The notes below the pieces were generated by a model. The model ran no database searches, was not told the origin of the DNA, and worked only from the letters and a program-made list of their open reading frames with translations. From assembly GCA_001295775.1 (NCBI GenBank), contig LJIA01000001.1, positions 248,001-312,000 of the forward strand: a stretch of 64,000 bases of DNA, read 5' to 3'. This document shows, piece by piece, positions 2,097 to 30,738 of this stretch (its first letter is position 1; the number at the start of each line of letters is the position of its first letter). This DNA is from a beta proteobacterium AAP99 (lineage in GTDB: Bacteria > Pseudomonadota > Gammaproteobacteria > Burkholderiales > Burkholderiaceae_C). A program made the translations under genes and the position numbers.

Positions 2097-2885
2097 ATGT
2101 TGATGAGCTCTTTGCCTCCCGTTTCGCCCACGACTGGTCCAGCCGATCCGCAGAACCCTGCGGCAGCCGGCCCGACGTTCAGCCCGCTGTACGTTCAGAT
2201 CAAGTCCCTGCTCATGCAAGGACTGGAGAGCGGCGAGTGGAAGCCCGGCGAGATGATTCCTTCGGAAGTCGAACTCGCCCAGCGCTTCAAAGTGTCCCAG
2301 GGCACCGTGCGCAAGGCGGTCGATGAGCTGGCTTCCGAGCACCTGCTGATCCGGCGCCAGGGCAAAGGGACCTTCGTCGCTACGCATTCGGAGTCCAAGG
2401 TCCAGTTCCGCTTCCTTCGCCTGCACCCGGACGCCGGTGAACCGACGCACCCCGACCACTTTGTCCTGGATTGCAAGCGCCTTCGTGCGCCGGCAGACAT
2501 CGCCCGGCAGCTGGACTTGAAGGTCGGCGAGACCGCCGTGGTGATTCGCCGCAGCCTGCACTTTGGCGGCGAACCCACCATTCTTGAAGAAATCTGGCTA
2601 CCAGGGCCGTTGTTCAAGGGATTGACCATGGATCGGCTGGCCGACTATCGCGGGCCGATGTATGCGCTTTTCGAGCAGGAGTTCGCGGTGCGCATGATCC
2701 GCTGCGAGGAGCGCTTGAAAGCCGTGGCCGCCGATGAAAGCGCGGCGCAGGTACTCGCCGTGCCGGTGGGCACGCCCCTGCTGCAGGTGGAGCGTCTCTC
2801 GTTTTCCTACAACGAGCGGCCCGTGGAACTGCGCAAGGGCTGGTACCGGACCGACAAGCATCACTATCTGAATGCGTTGATTTGA
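2097..2885 (+). CDS. GntR family (HutC/UTRA-type) transcriptional regulator
   Basis: 262 aa. The N-terminal winged helix (about residues 30-95) has the GntR pattern: [19 protein letters not shown], then [20 protein letters not shown] and a wing reading [10 protein letters not shown]. The C-terminal half (about 100-260) looks like a UTRA ligand-binding domain, with [19 protein letters not shown] and [25 protein letters not shown] domains bind small metabolites that release the repressor from DNA. The gene lies between mdh (divergent) and sdhC (118 nt downstream, same strand), so it probably controls the surrounding TCA-cycle genes. The start is uncertain: ATG 2097 or ATG 2103, neither with a strong ribosome-binding site. 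Confidence 0.88.
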
Positions 2886-2910
2886 GAGGGTTCCAAAAAT
2901 CTCCGACAAT
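2882..2910 (+). promoter_or_regulatory. Candidate sdhCDAB promoter
   Basis: TTGAGA (2882-2887) and GACAAT (2905-2910) are 17 nt apart. The -35 overlaps the stop codon of the GntR gene (TGA at 2883-2885). The predicted start point is near 2917, about 87 nt before sdhC. This would let the sdh operon be expressed separately from its upstream regulator gene. Confidence 0.45.
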
Positions 2911-3003
2911 GCCGCGCTACCCATGAGTACGCGTCAGACGCCGATCTGATCGACTCAACAACAAAAAATCAATTCACTCCCTACATACGTTCTTCGAGGA
3001 GCC

Positions 3004-3420
3004 ATGTACATGGCAGAGGCAAAAGCACCCCCACGACCGCAGTACCGGAACATCCACGTCACGCAGATCATGCAGTACCGCCTGCCGCTGGCAGGCTACG
3101 TGTCCATCCTGCACCGCGTCAGCGGCGCTCTGATGTTCGTGCTGCTGCCCTTTGTGCTCTATCTGTTCGACCGCAGCCTCACCTCTGAAATCGCCTTCGG
3201 CCGCTTTCAAGCGCTGACCAGTCACTGGTTCGTCAAGCTGCTGATCCTCGCGTTGGCCTGGGCGTATCTGCATCACTTCTGCGCGGGCGTGCGCCACCTG
3301 TTCATGGACAAGCACATGTGGCTTGAGAAGGGCCAGGCCAAGTCGAGCGCCGTGGCCGTGTTTGCCGTCAGCCTGCCGCTGACCGCGCTGGTTGCCCTGA
3401 AGCTGTTTGGAGTGTTTTGA
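3004..3420 (+). CDS. sdhC: Succinate dehydrogenase cytochrome b556 subunit
   Basis: 138 aa, one of the two membrane anchors of succinate:quinone oxidoreductase (complex II), carrying quinone and haem b. Three hydrophobic helices are visible (about residues 32-55, 75-95 and 112-136). The conserved N-terminal stretch LAGYVSILHRVSGALMF and the haem-ligand region HHFCAGVRHLFMD are typical of SdhC. GAGGAG lies just upstream of the ATG. It is the first gene of a tight operon with sdhD, whose start is 2 nt after the sdhC stop. Confidence 0.95.
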   Translation: MYMAEAKAPPRPQYRNIHVTQIMQYRLPLAGYVSILHRVSGALMFVLLPFVLYLFDRSLTSEIAFGRFQALTSHWFVKLLILALAWAYLHHFCAGVRHLFMDKHMWLEKGQAKSSAVAVFAVSLPLTALVALKLFGVF

Positions 3421-3422
3421 GC

Positions 3423-3806
3423 ATGGCCGAGAACAACAACATCGGACCCAAGCGCCTGGTTGTCGGGGCGCACTACGGCCTGCGCGACTGGCTGTCGCAG
3501 CGCGTGACTGCCATCGTCATGGCAGTCTTCACGGTCATCCTGCTGATCGCGTTCCTCACCGGCAAGAACTTCACATACCAGGGCTGGGCAGGCCTGTTTG
3601 CCTCCACCTGGGGCGGCCTGCCGGTGATGAAGCTGCTCACCTTCGTGACCTTTGTGGCCCTCACGTGGCATGCATGGGTCGGCGTGCGCGACATCTGGAT
3701 GGATTACGTGAAGCCGGTCGGTATCCGCCTGGCGCTCCAAGTGTTCACCGTGTTCTGGCTGCTGGCGTGTGTGGTGTACGCCGGCCTGATCCTCCTGAAG
3801 GTGTAA
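3423..3806 (+). CDS. sdhD: Succinate dehydrogenase hydrophobic membrane anchor subunit
   Basis: 127 aa with three membrane segments. RLVVGAHYGLRDWLSQRVTA carries the conserved Ser/Arg near the quinone site, and LTWHAWVGVRDIWMDYVKP carries the haem-ligand His region and the conserved Asp-Tyr of SdhD. The ATG at 3423 is preferred; a TTG at 3417 that overlaps the sdhC stop is in frame but has no support. It is followed after 3 nt by sdhA, which implies translational coupling. Confidence 0.94.
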   Translation: MAENNNIGPKRLVVGAHYGLRDWLSQRVTAIVMAVFTVILLIAFLTGKNFTYQGWAGLFASTWGGLPVMKLLTFVTFVALTWHAWVGVRDIWMDYVKPVGIRLALQVFTVFWLLACVVYAGLILLKV

Positions 3807-8096: not shown

Positions 8097-8282
8097 CATG
8101 GCCGATTGCTTTTCACGATGCGCGACCCTACCTATACTGCGCGTCTTCTTTTTCGTTCTTTGCGCAATCCGTCGCGGGGCGTAGTCCCAAAGCGGAAGGG
8201 CCATGCAGCCGACCTTGAAACAATAGGCTGCGCCAATCCTGCACCAACCCGCACGAAACGTGCGCTTGAGAGGTGAAGCGTC

Positions 8283-11147
8283 ATGATGCAAGCGTTCCAG
8301 CAGAACTCGTATCTGTTCGGCGGCAATGCGCCGTATGTCGAAGAGCTCTACGAGCAGTATCTCAACAACCCCGCCAGCGTTCCCGAGAACTGGCGCGAGT
8401 ATTTCTCCCGCATGCAGCTCGTGCCTGCCGCCGACGGCAGCGCATCCACTGCGGACCAAGCCCACGCCCCCGTCATCGAATCCTTCGCGCAGCGCGCCAA
8501 GGCCAACGCCTTCCTGCCGCGTGCAGTGGGTGGTGCGGACGCTGCGGTGGCCCGCAAGCAGGTCCATGTCCAGTCGATCATCGCCGCCTATCGCTTCCTG
8601 GGCAGCCGCTGGGCAGATCTCGATCCGCTGCATCGCCAGGAGCGTCCGAGCATTCCGGAGCTGGAACCCGGCTTCTACGACCTGACCGAAGCCGACATGG
8701 ACCAGACCTTCTCTGCGTCCAACACGTACTTCGGCCAGGAGAACATGACGCTGCGCGAGATCGTCAAGTCTCTGCGCGAAACCTACTGCGGCACCATCGG
8801 CGCCGAGTTCATGTACATCAGCGATCCGGCGCAGAAGCGCTGGATGCAGCAGCGGCTGGAGAGCATCCGCAGCAAGCCGCAGTTCGAGCCGGCCAAGCGC
8901 AAGGCCATTCTCGAAAACCTCACGGCCGCCGAAGGCCTTGAGCGCTATCTGCACACCAAGTACGTCGGCCAGAAGCGCTTCTCGCTCGAGGGCGGCGAAA
9001 GTTTCATCGCTTCCATGGACGAGGTGATCCAGCGCGCCGGCGAGAAGGGTGTGCAGGAGATCGTGATCGGCATGGCCCACCGCGGGCGTCTGAACGTGCT
9101 GGTCAACATCCTGGGCAAGATGCCCAAGGATCTGTTTGCCGAATTCGAAGGCAAGGTCGCCGATGACGGCCTGTCGGCAGGCGACGTGAAGTACCACAAG
9201 GGATTTTCGAGCGACGTGTCCACCCCCGGTGGTCCAGTGCACCTGAGCCTCGCGTTCAACCCCTCGCACCTGGAGATCGTGAACCCCGTGGTGGAGGGCA
9301 GCGTGCGCGCCCGCCAGGACCGCCGTGGCGATGAGCATGGCCGTCAGGTGCTGCCGGTCCTCGTGCACGGCGACGCCGCCTTTGCCGGCCAGGGTGTGGT
9401 CATGGAGACGCTGAACCTTGCGCAGACGCGCGGCTATGGCACGGGCGGCACGATCCACATCGTCATCAATAACCAGATCGGCTTCACCACCAGCGACCCG
9501 CGTGACTCGCGCTCCACGCTGTATTGCTCCGACGTCGTCAAGATGATCGAAGCGCCGGTGCTGCACGTGAACGGCGACGACCCTGAGGCCGTGGTGTTCG
9601 CCACGCAACTCGCCGTCGATTTCCGCAGCGAGTTCGGCCAGGATGTGGTGATCGACATCATCTGCTACCGCAAGCTGGGCCACAACGAGCAGGACACCCC
9701 GAGCCTGACACAGCCGCTGATGTACAAGAAGATCGCCGAGCATCCAGGCACCCGCAAGCTGTATGCGGACAAGCTCGAGACGCAGAAGGTGCTCGATGTC
9801 GGTGGTGGCGATGCGCTCGTCAAGCAGTATCGCGCCGCGATGGACGAGGGCCGCCACACCGAGGAAATTGTCCTCACCAACTTCAAGAGCAAGTACGCGG
9901 TCGACTGGACGCCCTTCCTGAATCGCAAGTGGACGGACTCGGCGGATACCGCCGTGCCCATCACCGAGCTCAAGCGCCTGGCCGAGCGCATCACCACGAC
10001 GCCTGAAGGCTTCAAGGTGCACTCGATTGTCGAGAAGGTGCTGGCCGATCGCCGCGCCATGGGCAAGGGCGAGATGAATCTGGACTGGGGCATGGGCGAG
10101 CACCTCGCCTTCGCCTCGCTGGTGGCCAGTGGCTACCCCGTCCGCATCACCGGTCAGGACTGCGGCCGCGGCACCTTCACGCACCGTCACGCCGTGCTGC
10201 ATGACCAGAAGCGCGAGAAGTGGGACTCCGGCACCTATATCCCGCTGCAGAACGTGGCCGAAGGTCAGGCGCCGTTCACGGTGATCGACTCCGTGCTGTC
10301 TGAAGAAGCCGTGCTGGGCTTCGAATACGGCTACTCCACGGCCGAACCGAATGCGCTCGTCATCTGGGAAGCGCAGTTCGGTGACTTCGTCAACGGCGCG
10401 CAGGTCGTGATCGACCAGTTCATCAGCTCCGGCGAAGTGAAGTGGGGCCGCGCCAGCGGTCTGACGCTCATGCTGCCGCACGGCTACGAAGGCCAAGGCC
10501 CGGAACACTCCTCGGCCCGCCCGGAACGCTTCCTGCAGCTCTGCGCAGAGAATAACATGCAGGTGGTGCAGCCCACCACGGCCGCGCAGATCTTCCATCT
10601 GCTGCGCCGCCAGATGATCCGCCTGTTCCGCAAGCCGCTGGTCATCATGACGCCCAAGAGCCTGCTGCGCAACAAGGACGCCGGCAGCCCGCTGTCGGAA
10701 CTCGCCCGCGGTCACTTCCAGACCGTGATCGGCGAGCAGGACGACGCGATCAAGGCCGAGAAGGTCAAGCGCGTGCTGGTGTGCTCCGGCAAGGTCTACT
10801 ACGACCTCGTCAACGCCCGCAAGGAGCGTGGTTCGGAAGACGTGGCCATCATCCGCGTCGAGCAGCTCTATCCCTTCCCGCACAAGGCCTTCGGCGAGGC
10901 GATCTCCAAGTACACCAAGGCCACGGAACTGGTCTGGGTGCAGGATGAGCCGCAGAACCAGGGCTACTGGTTCTTCGTGCAGCACCATCTCCTGGAGAAC
11001 ATGTCCGAAGGGCAGAAGCTGGGTTATGCCGGCCGTGCTGCGTCTGCGTCACCGGCCGTGGGCTACTACAGCAAGCACAACGAGCAGCAGAAGGCCCTTC
11101 TGGATCAGGCCTTCGGCAAGCTCAAGGGCTTCGTCCAGACCAAGTAG
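8283..11147 (+). CDS. odhA: 2-Oxoglutarate dehydrogenase E1 component
   Basis: 954 aa thiamine-diphosphate enzyme that decarboxylates 2-oxoglutarate and transfers the succinyl group to the lipoyl arm of E2 (also called sucA). The N-terminus SYLFGGNAPYVEELYEQYL is the E1o recognition segment. GMAHRGRLNVLVNILGK, FNPSHLEIVNPVVEGSVRARQ and HGDAAFAGQGVVMETL are family hallmarks, the last carrying the GD of the ThDP site, with INNQIGFTT following. The C-terminal half has the transketolase-like pyrimidine domain (GQDCGRGTFTHRHAVLHDQ) and PHGYEGQGPEHSSARPERFL. AGGTGA precedes the ATG. The 186-nt gap after the gltA terminator must hold the promoter; a TATACT at 8133-8138 is a possible -10, but no convincing -35 was found. 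Confidence 0.98.
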   Translation: MMQAFQQNSYLFGGNAPYVEELYEQYLNNPASVPENWREYFSRMQLVPAADGSASTADQAHAPVIESFAQRAKANAFLPRAVGGADAAVARKQVHVQSIIAAYRFLGSRWADLDPLHRQERPSIPELEPGFYDLTEADMDQTFSASNTYFGQENMTLREIVKSLRETYCGTIGAEFMYISDPAQKRWMQQRLESIRSKPQFEPAKRKAILENLTAAEGLERYLHTKYVGQKRFSLEGGESFIASMDEVIQRAGEKGVQEIVIGMAHRGRLNVLVNILGKMPKDLFAEFEGKVADDGLSAGDVKYHKGFSSDVSTPGGPVHLSLAFNPSHLEIVNPVVEGSVRARQDRRGDEHGRQVLPVLVHGDAAFAGQGVVMETLNLAQTRGYGTGGTIHIVINNQIGFTTSDPRDSRSTLYCSDVVKMIEAPVLHVNGDDPEAVVFATQLAVDFRSEFGQDVVIDIICYRKLGHNEQDTPSLTQPLMYKKIAEHPGTRKLYADKLETQKVLDVGGGDALVKQYRAAMDEGRHTEEIVLTNFKSKYAVDWTPFLNRKWTDSADTAVPITELKRLAERITTTPEGFKVHSIVEKVLADRRAMGKGEMNLDWGMGEHLAFASLVASGYPVRITGQDCGRGTFTHRHAVLHDQKREKWDSGTYIPLQNVAEGQAPFTVIDSVLSEEAVLGFEYGYSTAEPNALVIWEAQFGDFVNGAQVVIDQFISSGEVKWGRASGLTLMLPHGYEGQGPEHSSARPERFLQLCAENNMQVVQPTTAAQIFHLLRRQMIRLFRKPLVIMTPKSLLRNKDAGSPLSELARGHFQTVIGEQDDAIKAEKVKRVLVCSGKVYYDLVNARKERGSEDVAIIRVEQLYPFPHKAFGEAISKYTKATELVWVQDEPQNQGYWFFVQHHLLENMSEGQKLGYAGRAASASPAVGYYSKHNEQQKALLDQAFGKLKGFVQTK

Positions 11148-19307: not shown

Positions 19308-19685
19308 ATGAACATCATCGAAACGCTCGAAAAAGAAGAAGTTGCCCGCCTCACGGCCGGCAAGACCATCCCCGAATTCGCTCCTGGCGACACCGTGATC
19401 GTGAACGTCAACGTGGTTGAAGGCAACCGCAAGCGCGTTCAGGCCTACGAAGGCGTGGTCATCGCCAAGCGCAACCGCGGCCTGAACAGCTCGTTCATCG
19501 TGCGCAAGATCAGCTCTGGCGAAGGCGTGGAACGTACGTTCCAGCTGTACTCCCCGCTGCTGGCCTCCATCGAGGTCAAGCGCCGCGGTGACGTGCGCCG
19601 TGCCAAGCTGTACTACCTGCGTGGTCGTACCGGCAAGTCGGCTCGCATCAAGGAAAAGCTCAAGCTGCGCACCACCGCCGAGTGA
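19308..19685 (+). CDS. rplS: 50S ribosomal protein L19 (bL19)
   Basis: 125 aa. [20 protein letters not shown] and [20 protein letters not shown] are typical, followed by [20 protein letters not shown]19 sits at the 30S-50S interface. The ATG at 19308 is preceded by GAAGGAAGAAC. It is the last gene of the operon, with a terminator 34 nt later. Confidence 0.98.
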
Positions 19686-19718
19686 TGTGTGGCGCCTGCC
19701 GCTTGCGCGGCAGTGCGG

Positions 19719-19752
19719 AAAAGGCGCCCGGCTTCAAGCCCGGCGCCTTTTT
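19719..19752 (+). terminator. Rho-independent terminator after rplS
   Basis: AAAGGCGCC...GGCGCCTTT arms with a short inner GG/CC extension, followed by a run of T at 19748-19753. Confidence 0.88.
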
Positions 19753-19859
19753 TCTTGGTGCGTGGTCTGGGCCGGCCAACGCTCTGGCGCCTTGCCGCTC
19801 CGAGTAGCGCCCGACCACCCACCGGCTGAACCTCGCCTACCTGTTGCAGTCTTTCGTCC

Positions 19860-20552
19860 ATGAGTACCTCGCCACGCATCGTCGACCCGCAGGCTTCGCG
19901 CATCGTGCCCATCGACGCGCCACCGGCGGTCGAACCTGCGCGCCTGGCCGCGCAGCGCCTGCGCGAGCGATTTGCTGCGCCGCCGCTGTGGCAGCCCGAG
20001 ATGCCGGGTGACGGCGGGCTGTTTCCCGGCCGCGAGATCCGCGACGCCGCCGTGCTCGTGCCCTTGGTGCAACGCGACGACGGCCTGCGCGTGCTGCTCA
20101 CTCAGCGCACCGCGCATCTGCATGACCACGCCGGCCAGATCAGCTTCCCCGGCGGCCGGCGCGACCCCGAAGACACCTCGCTCGAGGCCACCGCGCTGCG
20201 CGAGGCGCATGAAGAAGTGGGGCTGAAGCCCGCCCAGATCGAACTGCTCGGCCGCCTGTCCGACTACCAGACCGTGACCGCCTATCGCGTCACGCCCGTG
20301 GTGGCGCTGGTGAACCCGCCCGTGGTGCTCGCCACCGACAGCTTCGAGGTGGCGGACGTCTTCGAGGTGCCGCTGAGCTTCCTGATGAACCCGCGCAACC
20401 ACCAGCGCCGCGCCATCGACACCCCCGTGGGCGAACGCCACTTCTTCGCCATGCCCTGGACCGACCCGCTGGACCCGGAGCAGCGCGAGCGGTTCATTTG
20501 GGGTGCAACGGCAGCGATGCTTCGAAACTTCTACCGGTTTCTCTCTGCGTAG
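19860..20552 (+). CDS. NUDIX hydrolase, CoA pyrophosphatase (NudL) type
   Basis: 230 aa. The Nudix box is GGRRDPEDTSLEATALREAH followed by EEVGL (about residues 99-123). It is preceded by LLTQRTAHLHDHAGQISFPG, the UPF0035 signature that marks the CoA pyrophosphatase subgroup, which splits CoA into 3',5'-ADP and 4'-phosphopantetheine. The substrate is inferred from that signature only. The C-terminal 18 codons (WGATAAMLRNFYRFLSA and stop) are repeated about 162 bp downstream with only synonymous differences (see findings). It is 107 nt beyond the rplS terminator, so probably has its own promoter. Confidence 0.93.
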   Translation: MSTSPRIVDPQASRIVPIDAPPAVEPARLAAQRLRERFAAPPLWQPEMPGDGGLFPGREIRDAAVLVPLVQRDDGLRVLLTQRTAHLHDHAGQISFPGGRRDPEDTSLEATALREAHEEVGLKPAQIELLGRLSDYQTVTAYRVTPVVALVNPPVVLATDSFEVADVFEVPLSFLMNPRNHQRRAIDTPVGERHFFAMPWTDPLDPEQRERFIWGATAAMLRNFYRFLSA

Positions 20553-20806
20553 GGCAGCGCAGCTCAAGGTCCAAATGAACACGGCAAACGCTTGCAAGCG
20601 TTTGCCGCGCCACGGCGGATCGATGCGCGCAGGCGCACCGATCTGTTCGCCGTGGCGTATTTGGGGGGCGACGGCGGCAATGCTCAGAAACTTCTACCGC
20701 TTCCTATCTGCCTAGGCTCACGTTCTGTGGGGGCCCAAATGAACACGGCAAACGCTTGCACGCGATTGCCGAGCCACGGCGGATCGATGCGCGCAGGCGC
20801 ACCGAC
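20497..20806 (+). repeat. Two-copy direct repeat, period about 162-164 bp, spanning the NUDIX gene 3' end
   Basis: Unit 1 is about 20497-20641 and unit 2 about 20658-20806. Each begins with the last 18 codons of the NUDIX gene (second stop at 20713-20715). Each continues with a non-coding tail containing CCAAATGAACACGGCAAACG and CGGCGGATCGATGCGCGCAG. Between the copies the coding part shows ten synonymous changes and no amino-acid change, while the tail is almost identical. The second copy has no start codon of its own. The rest of 20553-20892 shows no gene. Confidence 0.85.
20582..20607. promoter_or_regulatory. 26-bp perfect palindrome in repeat unit 1
   Basis: Arms CGGCAAACGCTT and AAGCGTTTGCCG flank a central GC. 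The second repeat unit has a degenerate copy at 20746-20771 with mismatched arms. The form resembles a LacI-family operator or a recombination core, but no such regulator is encoded nearby; it could also be an RNA hairpin. Confidence 0.4.
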
Positions 20807-20892
20807 CTGAACGCCGGCCGTCTCTGTAGCAAACCGTTGCCACAGCGCCGCGAGCCGAACGATGGCCAATTCCGACCCGCGATAATCGCGCG

Positions 20893-21828
20893 ATGGATCT
20901 CGCTGCCCTCCTGCTTGCCCTGCTGATCGAACAGGCTCACGCCATGCCGGCCAACAACCCGGTGTGGGCGAGTTTTCGGGGCTGGTCGGCCTGGTTTGCC
21001 AAGAATTTCAACGCCGGCGCGAAGTCGCATGGGCGCCTGGCCTGGGTGCTGTATGCGGCGGGCGTGGGCGTTGGGGTCACCCTGATTTGGTGGGGCGCCA
21101 CCAAGCTGCATCCGGCGCTGGGTTTTGCGGTGAATGTGATCGCGCTGCTGTTCACGATGGGCTTCCGGCGCTTCTCGCATGCCTTCACGCTGATCGAGGA
21201 CGCCGTGCGCGAGGGCGATGCCGACGCAGCCTACAAGGTGATGGCGCAGTGGCGTGCCGAGCAGGATCGGCCGCTGGATGTGCCCACGCTGCCGCTGCAC
21301 CGCAGCGCGGCGCTGGCCATCGAAGACGGCCTGGTGGCCTCGCACCGTTCCGTGTTTGGGGTGATGTTCTGGTTTGCGGTGTTGCCGGGGCCTGTGGGCG
21401 CGGTGCTCTACCGGCTGACGGATCACATCGCACGCCACTGGAGCCGGCCGCATGTGGGTGGCGACAGCCCGGAAGACCTGCGCTTCTCAAGCTTTGCGCG
21501 GCAGGCCTTCGAGGTCATTGATTGGGTGCCCGCGCGGTTGTCTGCGCTGGGCTTCGCCATCGTCGGCAACTTCGAGGATGCGATGCATCTGTGGCGCAAC
21601 CGTGCGCTGCGCTTTGGCGAGGACACCCGAGCGCTGCTCGTGGCGGCCGGCGCCGGTGCGCTGGGTGTGGAGATTGGCCCGCCGGGCAAGGCGGATTCAG
21701 GGCTGGACTGGAGCGGCACGCAAGCGGGCGCCGCTGCCATGCGCAGCGCAGCCGGGCTGGCGTGGCGCACGGCCATCCTGTGGCTGACGATCATCGCCGT
21801 CTGGACCGTGGCGCAGCTGTTCGGCTAA
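20893..21828 (+). CDS. CobD/CbiB family integral membrane protein
   Basis: 311 aa with about five hydrophobic segments (1-18, 50-70, 75-95, 155-180 and 290-311). ASHRSVFGVMFWFAVLPGPV followed by GAVLYRLTDHIA corresponds to the most conserved part of CobD/CbiB (adenosylcobinamide-phosphate synthase). FDVIDWVPARLSA-like FEVIDWVPARLSALGFAIVG, with the Asp-Trp-x-Pro-x-Arg core, is also shared. No other cobalamin genes are nearby and the N-terminus differs from true CobD, so a role in B12 synthesis should not be assumed. A GATAAT eight nucleotides before the start is tempting as a -10 but would imply an almost leaderless mRNA. Confidence 0.7.
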   Translation: MDLAALLLALLIEQAHAMPANNPVWASFRGWSAWFAKNFNAGAKSHGRLAWVLYAAGVGVGVTLIWWGATKLHPALGFAVNVIALLFTMGFRRFSHAFTLIEDAVREGDADAAYKVMAQWRAEQDRPLDVPTLPLHRSAALAIEDGLVASHRSVFGVMFWFAVLPGPVGAVLYRLTDHIARHWSRPHVGGDSPEDLRFSSFARQAFEVIDWVPARLSALGFAIVGNFEDAMHLWRNRALRFGEDTRALLVAAGAGALGVEIGPPGKADSGLDWSGTQAGAAAMRSAAGLAWRTAILWLTIIAVWTVAQLFG

Positions 21829-30357: not shown

Positions 30358-30738
30358 GGGCGGATTGCGGCAGCGCCGGAAGACTCGCAAGGGGTGCGCC
30401 GGACTGTAGCCAGAACCGCCAGCCTCCGCCGCCATCGTGCCCTGTTTGCGGGGCTTCAGCCCGCATCCGCGAGGCAAGACGCGCTTCTGGTGCGGCTTTT
30501 CGGGGCAAACCGGCTGGAAAGCCGCGCCGGACAAGCGGAAAGACTTTGGCTCGGACGCTGACCGCGCAAGCCGGTGAGCCCGCATGCGTTGCGCGTGCAC
30601 GTCGGCCGGGCCGAAGGCATGAACGATTGCCTAAGAAGTTGCTCAGTCTGCATTTGCTATCGACCGCGCTCAAGACCTGCGCCCGCGCTGCCGAAAGCAT
30701 TGCCGTAGGGGGCCAAGCCTCCGCAACCGGAGCAGAGC
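30358..30738. other. Intergenic region with hairpin and palindrome copy C
   Basis: Between the divergent PLD gene and a secreted protein gene. TTGCGGGGCTTCAGCCCGCA near 30445-30466 is a stem-loop, followed by copy C at 30472-30546. No gene was found. Confidence 0.5.
30472..30546 (+). repeat. Dispersed palindrome family, copy C
   Basis: GCGCTTCTGGTGCGGCTTTT, then GGGCAAACCGGCTGGAAAGC, CGCGCCGGACAAGCGGAAAG. The same arrangement as copy D at 36535. Confidence 0.8.

Follow-up and report, generated by a model that had tools for sequence, protein, structure and literature searches.

The locus analyzed here lies in a window of 64,000 nucleotides (the whole stretch of DNA under analysis) and raises the question of how the end of a gene can recur a short distance downstream, out of frame, and differ from the first copy exclusively at silent positions. 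The gene matched the CoA pyrophosphatase model NF007980 with 144.9 bits (cut-off 134) and the Pfam NUDIX domain with 59.9 bits. Its last 18 codons (copy 1, C1) return 163 bp downstream (copy 2, C2; a sequence-only reading of the locus had put the distance at 162 bp), and both copies translate into IWGATAAMLRNFYRFLSA followed by the same stop, TAG, as that reading had noticed. Its estimate of about ten synonymous substitutions without any amino acid change was confirmed by the codon recount: of the 57 nt, 10 are unlike in C1 and C2, each in a codon of its own, and all 10 differences are synonymous. The pattern held under codon alignment. The near identity claimed for the adjoining non-coding tail of about 85 bp also proved right, with seven differences in 85 nt (92% identity); the 15–16 nt linker from stop to tail gave no alignment between the copies.

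Table 1. Features of the repeated gene end and related sequences (window positions unless another locus is named).
Feature	Position	Strand	Remark
CoA pyrophosphatase (NUDIX) gene, 230 aa	19860..20552	+	working 3' end is C1
A, GTTCATTTGG	20492..20501	+	lies across the repeat's left border: 4 nt outside it, 6 within
C1, copy 1: last 18 codons and TAG	20496..20552	+	in frame with the gene
Tail 1	20568..20652	+	85 nt; identity to tail 2, 92%
A', CCAAATGAAC	20571..20580	+	inverted copy of A
46-aa frame	20575..20715		runs through the tail into C2
Perfect 26-bp palindrome	20582..20607	.	
Second hairpin, 50 bp	20608..20657	.	foot 1 nt before C2
C2, copy 2: 18 codons and TAG	20659..20715	+	out of frame relative to the gene
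Tail 2	20732..20816	+	hairpins decayed
Second A', CCAAATGAAC	20735..20744	+	
CobD/CbiB family protein gene, downstream	20893..21828	+	NF005792, 299.2 bits (cut-off 291)
Dispersed repeat, window	28025 and 30488-30546		
Dispersed repeat, L201	15688-15909		
Dispersed repeat, L196	2546-2760		

With an expected synonymous share of about 0.26 among random changes in the repeated end, the chance of ten synonymous changes out of ten is about 1.6e-6; in 400,000 simulations of ten changes each, the protein was never preserved. C1 and C2 disagree at eight of 10 fourfold sites, the level that saturation would give, against seven of 85 positions in the tails (p=2e-6); counted over all sites, the contrast between end (10/57) and tail (7/85) was not significant (Fisher p=0.12). 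Since the fourfold sites are saturated and the tails are not, end and tail differ in history. At 42 of 51 identical nt, the distance between C1 and C2 is about that which separates either copy from its counterpart in other genomes. Among the 183 ends compared, repeated loci included, the best matches outside the own genome reached 43/51 for C1 and 42/51 for C2, and no donor for either copy was found. From the saturated silent sites and this distance we infer that both C1 and C2 evolved for long as working gene ends and that the tails split more recently. Judging from these sequences, a plain tandem duplication cannot be the origin of the repeat, because ends and tails have different histories. 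After tandem duplication or slippage an untranslated copy would be expected to diverge regardless of frame, and here 10 of 10 changes are silent; the earlier conclusion that a simple tandem duplication does not suffice is thus supported. The low GC3 of the gene end (0.56 vs 0.93) was dropped as a sign of foreign DNA, being present also in relatives' loci without an insert.

The stretch between the copies measures 106 bp, close to the 100 bp or so estimated before, and holds a perfect 26-bp palindrome and a 50-bp hairpin. Its inverted copy of the left border, A', begins 18 nt past the stop of C1. The tail-1 stretch folded far better than its shuffles (z = -6.0, DNA parameters); in the tail-2 stretch (z -0.7) the structure of palindrome and hairpin is lost. 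A search of Rfam over 19600-21200 gave a sole match, P17, which lies outside the repeat and reached 14.3 bits where the gathering score is 45. The CobD-like gene lies closely downstream of the NUDIX gene in many relatives (by eye and clustering), and its cluster accounts for 105 of 164 first downstream frames, the rest being smaller clusters, singles and several plainly spurious frames.

Second copies of the gene end were found in other genomes as well. An ungapped scan of the loci with the NUDIX gene (n=142, the own genome counted four times) revealed them in the own genome, L022 and L027. With a profile of the gene end, they were detected in four of 98 genomes of the family of L027, another Burkholderiales family than that of the window: G439, G440 and G491 carry intact tandems and G487 a decayed one. 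G492 holds a decayed remnant that the profile did not report as such, which shows that decay can hide a copy from this search. Of the 399 genomes in the window's family, 389 matched the profile at E 0.01, and only G000 had two ends; none of the other 388 showed a second one at this threshold, which strongly decayed copies could escape. An order-wide sample gave a gene-end match in 201 of 349 genomes at E 0.05 and, besides G439 and G487, two matches in four genomes (G643, G666, G794, G703). Altogether, a second copy was seen in no more than five genomes and a remnant in one further genome; at least L022 and L027 among them are MAGs.

Several candidates were discarded as tandems. The two matches each in G486 and G643 were overlapping contig ends or variants, in G666 and G794 no tandem was seen in the region of the listed match, and the second match in G489 was a different, poorly matching gene end. 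Apart from this, we observed that the draft assemblies of G486 (contigs C75/C110) and G643 (C7/C44) break at the NUDIX gene end; the contig ends overlap but are not quite the same, which would fit strain differences at this site.

The offset between copies is 163 bp in the window and 123, 122, 121 and 118 bp elsewhere. Within each of L022 and L027, copy 1 and copy 2 agree at every base over a length of 60 or more, and the differences between the two genomes fall at matching sites in both copies. The copies of L173 have one mismatch in 43 bases, and the stop of copy 2 lies one base before the start codon of the next gene (CobD-like, by eye). A similarly tight junction was seen by eye in several relatives, and hence copy 1 and the spacer constitute the insert in L173. 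In L177 (G487) and L269 (G492) copy 2 has decayed with amino acid changes.

Recurrence of this kind appeared confined to the one gene in the frames surveyed. Among 3,727 frames of at least 150 codons (1.69 Mb, 178 sequences including the window), 14 gene-end repeats were found; 12 of these belong to the NUDIX gene, repeated loci counted, and the other two are repeats between genes, lying in reading frames that we consider spurious. A scan of 3,108 frames (120 codons or longer) from 862 kb of the own genome scored the NUDIX gene end at 44/54, and the eight other gene-end matches scored 33-35/54, one of them being an overlapping frame at the same place. No comparable duplication was detected at another gene in either set, with nothing above 35/54 in the own genome.

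The intact tandems (window, G439, G440, G491) share an architecture: an inverted copy of the border, 9–11 nt long, lies 15–23 nt past the stop and is followed by a hairpin that ends at copy 2. An A' of at least 9 nt at the border was present in 4/4 intact tandem loci and in 0/156 other loci, where the inverted match to the border reached at most 8 nt (two loci); the decayed loci L177 and L269 retain 5 nt of it. The count comprised 162 distinct ends after 12 redundant names and exact duplicates had been dropped. Fisher's test gave 4e-8, or 5e-7 if the decayed loci are scored as lacking A', values that overstate independence because L022 and L027 are related. In an alignment of L027, L022, L173 and L177, six pairs changed on both sides, five of them in the hairpin, against zero to two with slid partners; with four sequences, and with A' of L173 placed a base or two off by the alignment, this is modest evidence of pairing. 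The spacers of the window, L027 (z -3.6) and L022 (z -2.9) folded beyond their shuffles; that of L173 did not (z +1.3), nor clearly did that of L177 (z -0.7). The units of the window and of the G439 family are alike in architecture and have no evident sequence in common, and for this reason their origins may be separate.

Our searches contained one further genome of the genus (G001, locus L003). It has a single gene end, no tail, and about 640 bp of different DNA before the same CobD-like gene. With regard to an empty site in relatives, the congener thus shows one end with other DNA downstream, and one end was found in 388 of the 389 matched family genomes. Codons 197–212 are identical between the window and L003 (16 codons), and from codon 213 on, 10 of 19 codons differ. 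The divergence thus begins abruptly at codon 213, which is the left border of the repeat. At fourfold sites, 32/127 differ before the border and 7/11 after it (one-sided p=0.012, uncorrected), the strongest jump among 121 close pairs of the NUDIX gene, drawn from 171 sequences with some loci counted twice. Six neighboring genes, named by eye, served as controls (a seventh, orn, lies beyond the contig of L003), and their last 18 codons were compared with the rest. In rimM the jump was similar (4/7 vs 13/80); the other five had none equally strong (rpsP 1/13 vs 7/44, trmD 1/8 vs 22/134, rplS 0/11 vs 4/61, zapE 2/7 vs 38/181 and the CobD-like gene 5/11 vs 58/177). Because rimM jumps similarly at its end, the jump at codon 213 is suggestive and falls short of proof. 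Between the NUDIX and CobD-like genes L003 also carries a reverse frame of 190 aa (8264-8905), with weak HemY_N/TPR similarity below the Pfam cut-offs and no PHROGs match.

The locus shows two ends that encode the same peptide and are saturated at silent positions, a left border at codon 213, and an inverted border copy with hairpins between the ends. The recurrence of this rare arrangement at the same gene in a few distant relatives points to a local hot spot for gene-end swapping rather than to a known mobile element. Our preferred reading, to which we give a probability of roughly 45%, is that duplication and replacement of gene ends would concentrate in a small hot spot at the end of the CoA pyrophosphatase gene, most likely driven by hairpins and inverted repeats. 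From the sequences we infer a mechanism of insertion at the codon-213 border, by which a short non-coding unit (gene end, linker, A' and hairpin), about 163 bp in the window and 118–123 bp in relatives, would be placed before the resident end or exchanged with it. The incoming unit would become the live gene end, and only its protein-equivalent versions would survive; such selection would account for silent differences alone. The likeliest route would be template switching during replication or the annealing of an incoming single strand, because A and A' form an inverted repeat and the hairpin touches copy 2. No dedicated recombinase for gene-end turnover is in evidence. The earlier proposal of DNA insertion at the 3' end of the gene stands to the extent that both ends look as if they formerly worked; its integrative element does not. 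Large elements with integrases are known to replace gene ends by protein-equivalent versions. If the end of one housekeeping gene were replaced recurrently and without an integrase, with a hairpin and an inverted border copy as its marks, it would offer a small, testable example of local gene-end turnover; it would also warn against taking every cargo-free repeat of a gene end for the att site of a lost island. A narrow search of the literature, which proves no absence from print, found no description of gene-end units of this kind.

In form, the nearest known phenomenon would be template-switch mutation. Known events are usually short. At inverted repeats and quasipalindromes they leave reverse-complement copies of adjacent sequence, perfect hairpins and compensated stems, as described in PMC8794818. 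The window and its relatives likewise show a reverse-complement copy of the border (A/A' of at least 9 nt in 4/4 intact loci) and hairpins. The gene end and A' can be traced to a neighboring template, and the hairpin sequences, by eye, cannot. The locus differs in that the repeat comprises an entire gene end, found at one gene in several lineages, and in that the copies in the window have separate histories.

These separate histories would also fit two steps, in which template switching driven by the hairpins and inverted repeats first duplicated end and tail in tandem and a later homologous import of the gene end from another species overwrote one end together with its linker. We regard this course as rather unlikely. 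It would explain why the tails are young (7/85) and the ends old (8/10 fourfold sites), the histories parting between end plus linker and tail, and the identical or nearly identical copies in L022, L027 and L173 resemble newborn or homogenized duplicates. Template switching is moreover able to make reverse-complement copies and to maintain hairpins, according to PMC8794818. The import would, however, need to end at both borders of the repeat, and the 183 ends compared include no donor. Nothing like A' plus hairpin follows copy 2 of L173 (by eye), and because of this a simple slip of a pre-existing unit fails there.

The nearest known case in effect would be prophage e14 in the icd gene of E. 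coli K-12. This prophage carries its own integrase. Its incoming DNA supplies an end that keeps the protein working, with one conservative amino acid replacement, and a displaced 163-bp copy of the resident icd end is left behind, as reported in PMC6379469. The window resembles e14 in icd in this displaced copy, and its gene end, too, is duplicated with a protein-equivalent, in-frame copy. If C1 and C2 were the attL and attR of such an element, its interior would have been lost, and we consider this quite unlikely, although elements of this class typically bring a protein-equivalent gene end in the incoming DNA. e14 is a whole prophage, and the window has 106 bp with hairpins and no integrase, cargo or other recognized gene between the ends. 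Loss of an interior is made unlikely by the tandem cases elsewhere, which have a similar small architecture of hairpin and inverted border; in the window, moreover, the tail follows both ends. The large element with an integrase that relatives might have shown between the ends was found neither in the family genomes (no second end in 388 of 389) nor in the 164 loci, whose first downstream frames, inspected by eye with one representative per cluster, contained no recognized integrase or transposase. These results speak against the integrative element proposed by the sequence-only reading.

Searches for a mobile relative agreed. The repeat had no match in phage and plasmid records, no copy of the tail lay elsewhere in the own genome, and in the 399 and 149 genomes searched the tail gave only weak, partial matches, taken for chance. 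A viral contig (L113) matched by a 19-base piece of the tail was a chance match as well. Degenerate gene-end patterns hit 3, 0 and 0 viral contigs, two of the three being unrelated (by eye), and in the viral contig L180 a NUDIX gene end is followed by another gene (by eye). A diversity-generating retroelement was rejected, the changes being neither adenine-specific nor amino acid changing and no reverse transcriptase being recognized among the frames by eye; an integron attC reading was likewise dropped because, on inspection, the boxes of such sites do not fit. Streptococcal ICEs integrate in the NUDIX gene mutT, as stated in PMC4701971, and share with our locus a NUDIX gene as the site. They differ in using another NUDIX gene, which is disrupted and not restored, and in having serine integrase triplets and direct repeats of 2-8 bp.

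A mini-element poor in protein and guided by base pairing is, in our estimate, very unlikely. Here A' would be a guide pairing with the gene at the border, the hairpin would be the recognized end, and insertion or copying at the border would duplicate or replace some 45-70 bp of gene end. If this were true, the loci with A', hairpin and copy 2 jointly intact (G439, G440, G491) would be active elements, and those with A' and copy 2 jointly decayed (G487, G492) dead ones.

Still less can be said for translation of C2 as the end of a small protein whose sequence would be conserved, which we hold to be highly improbable. The 46-aa frame (MNTANACKRLP...IWGATAAMLRNFYRFLSA) is open from an ATG with AAGG upstream (by eye) and would account for purely silent change. 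The frame has, however, no relative in Pfam or among plasmids and a PHROGs match at E 0.38 only, its tail-2 version stops ahead of any gene end (by eye), the offsets of 163, 123, 122, 121 and 118 bp share no common frame, and copy 2 decays with amino acid changes in G487 and G492. An ordinary old tandem duplication, silent by luck, is barely credible, since even in so short a sequence of 18 codons its probability is about 1.6e-6.

The window also holds another, dispersed repeat (Table 1). It is about 60-80 bp long, with the palindromic core GCGGCTTYCCAGGCCAAAATGGCTGGAAAGCCGC...GACAAGCGGAAAGCC (consensus by eye), and the own genome matched it 45 times. Twice it was seen as a tandem pair, spaced 141-142 bp, and the repeat is present also in the congener L003, near 3260-3339. 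In L196, an endonuclease III-like frame (2448-3581, minus strand; name by eye) has two in-frame copies in its C-terminal tail, and for that reason the repeat may be translated within it.
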